From: Flavobacteriales bacterium
GTDB taxonomy: Bacteria > Bacteroidota > Bacteroidia > Flavobacteriales_D > Parvicellaceae
Reading direction: 5' to 3'
Length of the DNA stretch: 64,000 nt
Assembly: GCA_029251405.1 (NCBI GenBank)
Contig: JAQXDK010000007.1
Location: 1-64,000 of the forward strand
Shown here: piece after piece, positions 49,282-53,501 of the stretch
Numbering within the stretch: position 1 is the first letter of the stretch
How the letters are laid out: each line of letters starts with the position of its first letter
Notes under the pieces: model-generated
What the model saw: only the letters and a program-made list of their open reading frames with translations
The model's database searches: none
Told to the model about the DNA's origin: nothing
Translations under genes and position numbers: made by a program

Positions 49282-50519
49282 TGCTATATCACTTTTTCAA
49301 TTATATAAATAAACACGTTGATTTTCCAGGTTCTGGATTGTTTGATTTTATATCCTTTAGAGCTGGGATGGCAGTTATTACATCCTTGGTAATCACCTTG
49401 ATTTTTGGAGCAAAACTTATTGATTTTTTACATAGAAAACAGGTTGGGGAGTCTATTCGCGACCTGGGATTAGATGGACAGATGGAAAAAACAGGAACAC
49501 CAACTATGGGCGGTGTTATTATAATAGCTGGAATAATAATTCCGACTATACTTTTCGCAAACCTGAATAATATCTACATACAGCTAATGTTAATTGCCAC
49601 AATTTGGCTGGGTTTAATTGGCTTTATTGATGATTACATAAAAGTATTTAAGAAAAATAAAAAAGGTTTAGCTGGAAAGTTTAAAGTTATTGGCCAAATT
49701 GGAGTTGGTATTATAGTTGGGGTCTCCATGTATTGGAGTGAATCTGTAACTATAAAGTCTAAAAACTTTAACAATACTGAAATTGCAATTAGTGCTGAAG
49801 GTGAAAAAGAAAATTTTGAATTTACTTGGGAAGAGACAAAGTCTCTGAAAACCACTATACCTTTTGTTAAAAATAACGAGTTCGACTATTCTTGGCTTAT
49901 TACTTGGATAAGTCCGTCTCTTAAGAAGTATTCATGGATTGTTTTTATTCCAATAATTGTCATAATTGTCATCTCTGTCTCAAATGGTGCAAATATTACA
50001 GATGGATTAGACGGTTTGGCAACAGGTACAAGTGCTATTATTGGTATTACTCTAGCAATTTTCGCTTACTTGTCTGGGAATTTAGTCTTCTCAGATTACC
50101 TAAACATACTCTACATACCCAACTCATCTGAGCTGGTAATTTTTATTAGTTCGTTTGTTGGAGCTTGTATTGGCTTTCTGTGGTACAATTCTTACCCAGC
50201 AAAAGTTTTCATGGGAGATACAGGAAGTTTAGCACTCGGAGGAATAATAGCCGTCTTTGCAATTGCTATTAGAAAAGAGTTGTTGATACCAATTTTTTGT
50301 GGTGTTTTTTTAATTGAAAATTTGAGTGTTATACTTCAAGTTTCCTACTTCAAGTTTACCAAAAGAAAATATGGTGAGGGTAGAAGAATTTTCCTAATGT
50401 CTCCCATACACCATCATTACCAAAAAAAGGGAATTCACGAGGCTAAAATAGTTGCTCGTTTTTGGATTATTGGAATTCTATTAGCTGTTTTATCTATTGT
50501 AACTCTAAAATTAAGGTGA
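49281..50519 (+). CDS. mraY: Phospho-MurNAc-pentapeptide transferase MraY
   Basis: Makes lipid I from UDP-MurNAc-pentapeptide and undecaprenyl phosphate at the inner membrane. The 412-residue protein has about ten membrane segments. Conserved sites are [20 protein letters not shown] (Asp pair), [12 protein letters not shown], and [12 protein letters not shown], with HHHYQKKG near the end. An insertion of about 60 polar residues (roughly 165-225) makes it longer than the ~360-residue enzyme of Proteobacteria, as is usual in Bacteroidota. Its stop overlaps the murD start as GTGA. Confidence 0.97.
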
Positions 50520-51868
50520 TAAATAATTTAAAAAATATCACTGTTTTAGGCGCTGGAAAAAGTGGAGTTGGAGCTGCTGTATTAGCGAAGAAAAAAAACA
50601 TAGAAGTCTTATTATTTAATGACAACCAAATTACATCGTCAACTAAAGAACTTTTAAGTGAATATAACGTCAAATGGATTGAGAAAAATTATAACAATAC
50701 CAAAGCTTTAAATAACGAATTATTAGTCACAAGTCCTGGGATTGATGATAAGCATCCAATGGTAGAGTATTATATCAAAAATTCAAAACCAGTTATAAGT
50801 GAAATAGAGTTTGCAAGTTATTTCTGTGATGCTAAGAAAATATGTGTCACAGGAACCAACGGGAAAACTACTACCACACTTATGGTCACTTATATTCTTA
50901 AAAATGCTGGATTAAAAGTTAAAGCAGTAGGTAATATAGGAGAGAGCTATGCGCTCTCTGTAGCATTAGAAAAATTTGATTTTTATGTTATAGAGTTAAG
51001 CAGTTTTCAACTAGATAGAATGTTTGATTTCAAGGCAGATATTGCAATTATTTTAAACATTTCTCCAGATCATCTAGATAGATATAAGGGAGATTTTTCA
51101 AAATATTCCAAAAGTAAATTTAGAATTAATCAAAACATGAAGACTAATGATCATCTCGTGTACAACTACGACGATCAAGTAATATCTGATTGGGTTACAT
51201 CAAAAAATAAAAAATCACACCAATTCCATCCAGTGTCAATTACCAAACAATTAGTAACTGGTTCTTGGGTTGAAGAAAATCAAATTAACATCAATATAAA
51301 CAACAAAAAAACAACAATTATGTCCATACACCAACTGGCCAAGCAAGGCAAACACAATTTATTTAATTCAATGGCTGCAGGAGTTGCAGCTAGAGTTTTA
51401 GATATAAGAAAAGAAATAATTCGAGACAGTTTATCAGATTTTCAAAATATTGAACATCGATTAGAAGATGTAGCGAAAATCCATGGAATTAATTTTATAA
51501 ACGACTCCAAAGCAACTAATGTAAATTCAACATGGTATGCCTTGGAAAGTATGCAGCAACCTACTATATGGATTGTTGGTGGAGTAGATAAAGGAAATGA
51601 TTATTCTGTTTTAGAGGGCTTGGTAAAGCAAAAAGTTCTTGGAATTGTTTGTCTAGGAAAAGACAATTCAAAAATTAAAGAAACCTTTGGTTCAATTGTA
51701 GAATCTTTTTTTGAAGCTAATAGTGCAGAACAAGCTGTTCAAATAAGCTATAGAATTGCTAAAAAAGGTTACAATGTTTTGTTGTCTCCTGCATGTGCAA
51801 GTTTTGATTTATTTAAGAGTTATGAGGATAGAGGCCATCAATTTAAAAGTGCCGTAAGATCATTATAA
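50516..51868 (+). CDS. murD: UDP-MurNAc-L-alanine:D-glutamate ligase MurD
   Basis: Adds D-Glu to UDP-MurNAc-L-Ala. The 450-residue protein has the UDP-binding domain ([15 protein letters not shown]), the ATP-binding [10 protein letters not shown] at 113-122, [18 protein letters not shown], and a complete C-terminal domain with [21 protein letters not shown] and [11 protein letters not shown] prefer GTG 50516 (GTGA overlap with mraY); a TTG 54 bp earlier would lie within mraY and add an unrelated hydrophobic stretch. The next gene repeats its C-terminal domain. Confidence 0.95.
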
Positions 51869-51877
51869 ATTCAAAAA

Positions 51878-52363
51878 ATGAAACTAGTCCAAAAGACCTC
51901 ACTGAAAAACCAACTGTTAGAAAGTAGAAAAAAATCATTAGATGCTATATTTTCTATTGAGCATCGTTTGGAGTTTTTTTCAAAATTAAATGGGAAGTTG
52001 TGGATCAATGACTCCAAATCTACTGATGTTGAAGCAACGGCATTCTCATTAGAAAAGATCGATGGTCCTGTAATTTGGATTGTTGGTCAAACCAAATATG
52101 AAAGAGATTTAGATGTCATTTATGACTTAGTTATTTCTAAAGTTGAGGAAATCATTTATTATGGACAGCATGAAACGAATCTGAAATATAAGTTTGGTTC
52201 TAAGGTTAAGTATACCCAAATATCAGATATTAAGAGTGCTGTAAATATGGCAATGCTGAATGAAACACAAAATCTTACTGTTCTCTTCTCTCCAGCATGT
52301 TCAAGTTTTCCAACTCATGAGAATTATAAATTGAGAGGAGATTATTTTAAATCTCTAATATAA
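51878..52363 (+). CDS. Free-standing MurD C-terminal-domain protein
   Basis: A 161-residue protein that aligns only with the C-terminal third of the murD product just upstream. Shared blocks: SIEHRLE (26-32), INDSKSTDVEAT (43-54; MurD has [12 protein letters not shown]), VIWIVG (65-70) and LFSPACSSF (136-144), then RGDYF. It lacks the UDP-binding and ATP-binding domains, and the MurD motif GGVDKG is changed to GQTKYE. It has its own ATG, no frame break and standard spacing (9 bp after murD, 10 bp before ftsW). It cannot be a ligase alone. It may bind D-Glu or UMAG, or modulate MurD; function is unknown. Confidence 0.85.
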   Translation: MKLVQKTSLKNQLLESRKKSLDAIFSIEHRLEFFSKLNGKLWINDSKSTDVEATAFSLEKIDGPVIWIVGQTKYERDLDVIYDLVISKVEEIIYYGQHETNLKYKFGSKVKYTQISDIKSAVNMAMLNETQNLTVLFSPACSSFPTHENYKLRGDYFKSLI

Positions 52364-52373
52364 GAGCTGATAA

Positions 52374-53501
52374 ATGCAAAATTTTATTGAAAAATATTTA
52401 AAAGGTGATAAGGTGATTTGGACAGTCATCATTTTACTTTCTCTATATTCTATTATTATGGCTTACAGCTCCAGTTCTAATTTAGCCTTTAGAATTGCTG
52501 GTGGTAATGTTGCTCCATACATTATCAAGCACACTATAATTATTATTATTGGCATTATTTTAATAATATATCTTCAATTTTTTCCCTACAAGTATTTCTC
52601 TAGACTATCTCAAATAGGAATTTTTGTCTCTATTATATTGTTGTTTGTAACCCTTCTATTTGGAGTTAGTAAAGGGAATGCTTCTCGTTGGATTATGGGA
52701 TTCCAACCTTCAGATTTTGCTAAACTTATTCTAATACTTTATGTCTCCAGAACCTTGACTACAAAAAAAGATGAGATTAAAGATTTTAAAAAGGGGTTAA
52801 TGCCTATTTTATGGCCTGTATTAGTTATCTGTGGGTTAATATTACCTGCCGATTTTTCAACAGCTGCTATGTTGCTAATAGTATGTTTCACCATGATGTT
52901 TATAGGTGGAGCAAAAATTACTCATCTTGCTTCAATTATTGGAACAGCTATTGTTGGGTTTTTATTTTTGATTTTACTAAATATGGCCTTTCCTGGGTTT
53001 TTACCTCGGGTCGATACTTGGGAAAAAAGAATGATGAGTTATGGTAGCGGGAATAAACAAGAAAACTATCAAGCTGAGATGGCTAAGAGAGCTGTTGCTA
53101 ATGGTTTTTTATTTGGTAAAGGACCTGGTAAGGGTCATGTTAAAAATGATTTATATTCAGCGCAATCAGATTTTATTTATGCTTCTTCCATCGAAGAATT
53201 TGGTTCTATTATTGGAGGCATTGGTTTATTACTTTTATATATGATTCTATTTTTTAGAGCGATTAGAATTATGAATAAAGTAGATAGTAAATTTGCTTCC
53301 TACTTGGTATTTGGATTAAGTTTCATGTTGATTTTTCAATCATTTATAAATATGGGAGTTGGAGTCAATCTTTTTCCCGTTACGGGTCAGCCACTTCCGC
53401 TAATTAGTATGGGCGGAACCTCAATTTTATTTACTTGTGTTTCTCTAGGTATTATTTTAAATGTAAGTTCTACTGTTTATAATGAATCCAATAATGTCTA
53501 A
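52374..53501 (+). CDS. ftsW: Septal peptidoglycan polymerase FtsW
   Basis: SEDS glycosyltransferase that polymerises lipid II at the septum with FtsI. The 375-residue protein has about ten membrane segments. Conserved features are the ASRWIMGFQPSDFAKLILI block, the extracytoplasmic loop containing the catalytic Asp (SAQSDFIYASSIEEFG), and GQPLPLISMGGTSI. It follows the MurD-like protein by 10 bp. Confidence 0.95.
   Translation: MQNFIEKYLKGDKVIWTVIILLSLYSIIMAYSSSSNLAFRIAGGNVAPYIIKHTIIIIIGIILIIYLQFFPYKYFSRLSQIGIFVSIILLFVTLLFGVSKGNASRWIMGFQPSDFAKLILILYVSRTLTTKKDEIKDFKKGLMPILWPVLVICGLILPADFSTAAMLLIVCFTMMFIGGAKITHLASIIGTAIVGFLFLILLNMAFPGFLPRVDTWEKRMMSYGSGNKQENYQAEMAKRAVANGFLFGKGPGKGHVKNDLYSAQSDFIYASSIEEFGSIIGGIGLLLLYMILFFRAIRIMNKVDSKFASYLVFGLSFMLIFQSFINMGVGVNLFPVTGQPLPLISMGGTSILFTCVSLGIILNVSSTVYNESNNV

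Follow-up and report, generated by a model that had tools for sequence, protein, structure and literature searches.

What is a single domain of a peptidoglycan ligase doing as a gene of its own between murD and ftsW? The question is raised by a stretch of 64,000 nucleotides from a Flavobacteriales bacterium of the Parvicellaceae (assembly GCA_029251405.1, contig JAQXDK010000007.1, positions 1 to 64,000), called the window here, in which a 161-amino-acid (aa) open reading frame (ORF) lies directly behind a complete murD, inside the division and cell wall (dcw) cluster. The ORF has an ATG start and no internal stops, and it is separated by 9 bp from the murD stop codon and by 10 bp from the ftsW start (Table 1). 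This operon-like spacing bears out the description in a first-pass annotation, made from the sequence letters, and the motifs quoted there (EHRLE, INDSKSTD, VIWIVG and LFSPACSSF) are all present, together with a changed version of the GGVDKG loop of MurD. The same genome also encodes complete Mur-ligase-type enzymes.

The ORF had been described as aligning with the C-terminal third of MurD only, and this is what the comparisons with profiles and structures gave. The NCBIfam murD model TIGR01087 matched it (E value, 2.9e-32) over model positions 292-438 only, with 112.3 bits, below the model's cut-off of 211.95 bits, and every match to a solved MurD in the PDB (E 1.6e-12 to 1e-6) covered chain positions ~290-450. 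The score with Pfam PF02875, Mur_ligase_C (E 1.6e-4, 22.9-23.5 bits), was just under the gathering score of 28.4, while the window's true MurD obtains 36-39 bits with the same model. The AlphaFold2 model of the 161-aa protein (predicted local distance difference test [pLDDT], 89.9; predicted template modeling score [pTM], 0.80) has the fold of the Mur ligase C-terminal domain, and its top Foldseek matches are MurD C domains (template modeling score on the query [TMq], 0.70-0.78; E down to 5e-11). That the ORF copies the C-terminal domain of MurD together with the helix that ends the middle domain is well supported, the homology being far beyond chance. Compared with the MurDs described by TIGR01087 and PF02875, the free-standing copies are homologous over ~292-438 and share the predicted fold, but they lack the UDP-binding N-terminal domain and the ATP-binding middle domain with its P-loop, and nearly all have lost the glycine loop and the lysine (K348 in Escherichia coli) that mark the GGxDKG loop of active MurDs, a tyrosine taking the place of this lysine in the window. 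A weak Foldseek match was chain 8r6s_Q, which we take to be the MurE-like PAP11 of the plastid RNA polymerase. PAP11, a Mur ligase homologue, is one of the subunits of a large complex; unlike the copy, it is full-length and acts in transcription.

Homologues were found in 35 of the 39 genomes of the window's family (f1; f, g, G and L codes are families, genera, genomes and loci of the genome collection searched) and in about 25 other families of the class Bacteroidia, with murD and ftsW as their flanking genes in nearly all cases. A single-sequence scan of the genome contigs gave no match, whereas an alignment-based scan did detect the copies. Among the four f1 genomes without one, three show no murD either and the fourth has a contig end inside murD. 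Within the Flavobacteriales, the copy is single in f10 and f11 and forms a tandem pair in f2, f3, f4 and f7, with member A adjoining murD and member B adjoining ftsW; the second tandem copy of f4 (L105 2519-2959, L071 2526-2972) is only just recognizable (E 2e-6 in G052). Other orders of Bacteroidia carry it after murD in f16, f17 (part), f21, f22, f24, f25, f32 (part), f36 and f39, with more post-murD copies in f41, f42, f43, f49, f53 (part), f56, f58 and f66, and in f54 it lies 5' of ftsW, remote from murD. Within the genomes read, no copy was present in f5, f6, f9, f12, f13 and many further families, nor in some 110 genomes from other Bacteroidota classes. A double match in G695, a member of the Bacteroidota outside the Bacteroidia, was rejected as a copy, its murD being split by contig ends.

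The ratio of nonsynonymous to synonymous substitutions (dN/dS) of the copy, in close pairs of the window's genus, is 0.08-0.19. In the same comparison the N-terminal plus middle domains of MurD give similar values (0.11-0.17) and the MurD C domain lower ones (0.01-0.09), and the copies do diverge faster than the MurD C domain. These ratios indicate that the copy is under purifying selection. It could still be a functionless, decaying remnant of a tandem duplication, as the faster divergence and two interrupted copies among the 35 of f1 (a frameshift in G010 and a stop in G029, both draft genomes) might suggest, but a dN/dS well below 1, fold residues that are invariant across families and a single old origin already contradict this, and we consider it very improbable. 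The first-pass annotation had also denied that the gene is such a remnant, and the dN/dS values, the homologues and the old origin agree with it. Because there are homologues, purifying selection and a Mur ligase C-terminal fold, neither of the outcomes that it had set against its own proposal, a recent relic or a different fold, describes this gene. The MurD C domain showed no clear difference in evolution between genomes with and without the copy. In the window, one TAA and 9 bases part the ORF from murD and both are in the same frame, so that read-through of the murD stop codon could in principle add the domain to MurD as a tail. However, the frame relation to murD varies by genome (0, 1 or 2), for which reason read-through was rejected as a general mechanism, and nearly all copies have their own start codon; the chance that it applies seems negligible.

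The window ORF falls on the copy side of the tree branch and lies between murD and ftsW, as expected for this paralogue family. In a tree of 165 rows, 78 copies were placed apart from all 86 MurDs, with L150 as the sole exception. With a set of 72 rows, the tree in which all the copies form one clade had a likelihood 15.6 log units above that of the free search (approximately unbiased test [AU], p-AU 0.71), and a clade of f1 copies and f1 MurDs was 57 units worse (p-AU 0.026), so that a duplication within f1 was rejected. A single ancient origin of the copies in an ancestor within the Bacteroidia is favored by these phylogenies, although the depth of this origin is unsure because the trees are quick ones of a short, fast-evolving domain. 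The tandem partial duplication of murD proposed earlier thus holds as far as a retained partial copy of MurD is concerned; it is neither local nor recent, being old and common to many families of Bacteroidia. In L150 (3908-4456, from the Flavobacteriaceae metagenome-assembled genome D96SM.bin.36), a 182-aa ORF that resembles the C domain of MurD and has GGVDKG intact lies between mraY and ftsW, in a cluster that has no murD or murC. The tree puts this ORF with ordinary MurDs, and it is therefore a separate event, perhaps a truncated murD.

A remote form of the copy seems to be an ORF of ~155 aa located between murD and ftsW in 9 of the 14 f8 genomes read across that interval. It has no DSKxT, SPAC or RG motifs, i.e., all the catalytic motifs are gone. 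Between its profile and that of the copy family, hhalign gave an alignment of 138 columns with a probability of 98.1 and an E of 1.3e-13, and removal of the two bridging sequences left a probability of 96.4 and an E of 1.1e-9. The f8 model detects the ORF in 19 f8 genomes and, weakly, the free-standing copies of f1, f2, f3, f4, f7 and f10 (E 5e-8 to 7e-5), and it scores a few MurDs at levels like those of these copies. The similarity of the profiles, the position and an LLxARxxxL pattern that both have at the N terminus make homology with the copy family likely.

Which residues have been kept bears directly on function. The roles of MurD residues are known in E. coli numbering, where K348 contacts the glutamate carboxylate (PMC3527612); the residues of the E. 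coli reference sequence used here agree at the published positions. All six ligand residues are kept in 94 of 96 MurDs and in only 2 of 88 copies, and K348, kept in 95 of the 96 MurDs, is lost in nearly all of the copies. Residues of the fold (N316, D317, S410, P411, R425, G426 and F429) persist in the copies, and R17 of the N-terminal helix is near-invariant in the alignments. One possibility is that the copy is a ligand sensor, whose pocket (R302, D317, K319, T321 and S415) would bind ATP/ADP, glutamate or UDP-MurNAc-peptide and report precursor supply to MurD or FtsW. The f1 copies do have a kept but altered pocket, with R302, D317 and T321 in 30/30, K319 and S415 in 29/30 and N322 changed to D in 27/30. 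However, glycine 345 and K348 are lost even there, much of the MurD ATP site belongs to the middle domain, which the copy does not have, and f3, f4 and above all f8 have lost the pocket and retained the gene. A sensor is on the whole unlikely, and the D-glutamate sensor of the first-pass annotation is weakened in particular because K348 and the glycine loop are gone nearly everywhere and f8 is devoid of catalytic motifs.

Position is the other source of evidence. Wherever the contig allows, ftsW directly follows the f1 copy, and in many genomes the distance between copy and ftsW is -1 to -8, an overlap of stop and start. A break in the dcw cluster, just behind murD, is seen in G439 (f54; L243) and in G061 and G108 (f8; L289 and L290), and at all three breaks the copy heads the ftsW half. 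This tie to ftsW is suggestive, not proof. In the f1 genus g8 (L250 4415-6015, L252 2475-4470), two ORFs, lipoprotein-like in G017, are found between murD and the copy. No fusion to the copy or to FtsW appeared among the MurD ORFs with long open frames that were checked. The same breaks argue against a copy that acts as a decoy or in-trans C domain, docking on the N-terminal and middle domains of MurD in place of its own C domain and so tuning or blocking the enzyme. Such a role would agree with the kept fold, with the conservation in f1 of the residues that face the ATP site and with the known inhibition of MurD by a protein that binds it, MigC (PMC12208494). Nevertheless, the copy is parted from murD and stays with ftsW at these breaks, and its sequence diverges fast; we rate this as quite improbable. 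In a joined AlphaFold2 model of MurD and the copy, MAFFT placed the free-standing rows on MurD's own C domain, and no interface score was obtained.

We lean toward an old MurD-derived paralogue that is not an enzyme and serves, through binding, as a small adaptor or regulator within the machinery bringing peptidoglycan precursors to FtsW. The key enzyme residues have mostly been lost and yet the gene is kept, and therefore it probably binds other proteins of the cell wall machinery; binding is favored because a place 5' of ftsW is kept even by the form that has no catalytic motif left. In this scenario, the part of MurD that runs from the last helix of the middle domain through the C-terminal domain would have been copied in an ancestor within the Bacteroidia; the copy has lost its enzyme residues stepwise while keeping its predicted fold and its place between murD and ftsW. 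The present protein would be noncatalytic and work through protein binding where peptidoglycan precursors pass to FtsW, with MurD, MurG or FtsW as likely partners. Associations of murein ligases with MurG, MraY and MreB have been reported, and this scaffolding by MurG (PMC6420597), like the inhibition of MurD by MigC (PMC12208494), is a precedent and not evidence. Several observations weigh against an adaptor. The f1 copies keep most of the ligand residues, which an adaptor alone does not need, and many Bacteroidia families are without the gene, which is therefore dispensable over the long run. Adjacency to ftsW is not absolute either, since G603 and G409 have a small ORF in between, and extra dispersed copies in f16, f54 and f58 adjoin neither murD nor ftsW. 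The dispersed second copies of f16 and f58 (L245 8283-8822, L246 8617-9156, L247 8195-8833) are each next to an aldehyde-dehydrogenase-like ORF; the genes around dispersed copies gave no functional clue.

A search of the open-access literature, which was not exhaustive, returned no paper that describes a MurD domain standing on its own. MurD2, the L-Glu-adding MurD of Xanthomonas (PMC8788868), is also a MurD paralogue with an altered K348 position (Arg358), but it is a full three-domain, active ligase that works with MurL, and the copy is one domain. MigC of Acinetobacter (PMC12208494) sets the precedent of a protein that binds and down-regulates MurD, but it is an unrelated COG0523 GTPase with no MurD fragment. 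More tentatively, the gene may be an overlooked, widespread dcw component, a dead MurD domain, duplicated again into a tandem pair in some lineages, through which Bacteroidia link the septal synthase FtsW to the synthesis of precursors in the cytoplasm. Few bacterial gene neighborhoods have been studied as well as the murD-ftsW part of the dcw cluster, and yet many Bacteroidia have a further conserved gene at this place that escapes general models: Pfam stays under its cut-off, and the f8 form was recovered only by profile comparison and position. If it does bind FtsW, MurG or MurD, it would offer a direct handle on the link between precursor supply and the synthesis of the septal wall, as well as a naturally occurring domain, derived from MurD, with a testable partner.

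Table 1. Features of the murD-ftsW interval, in window coordinates
Feature	Position	Strand	Remarks
murD, complete	50516..51868	+	GTG start; catalytic motifs intact
Free-standing MurD C-terminal-domain protein	51878..52363	+	161 aa, stop codon counted in; profile, PDB, AlphaFold2 and Foldseek matches
N-terminal helix, residues 2-24; equivalent to the final helix of the MurD middle domain	51881..51949	+	AlphaFold2 secondary structure, alignments
DSKST motif (equivalents of E. coli D317, K319, T321), kept in f1	52010..52024	+	D 30/30, K 29/30, T 30/30
GQTKYER in place of the MurD GGVDKG loop	52085..52105	+	K348 position not lysine (Y in the window copy)
SPACSSF motif (E. coli S415 region), kept	52289..52309	+	Alignments
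ftsW	52374..53501	+	Directly 3' of the free-standing gene in nearly all genomes read

The region around the ORF had no excess of promoters or terminators and no Rfam family. The window's murD and its relatives in the genus are unusually uneven in conservation, with a median identity of 54% in the N domain, 80% in the middle domain and 91% in the C domain.
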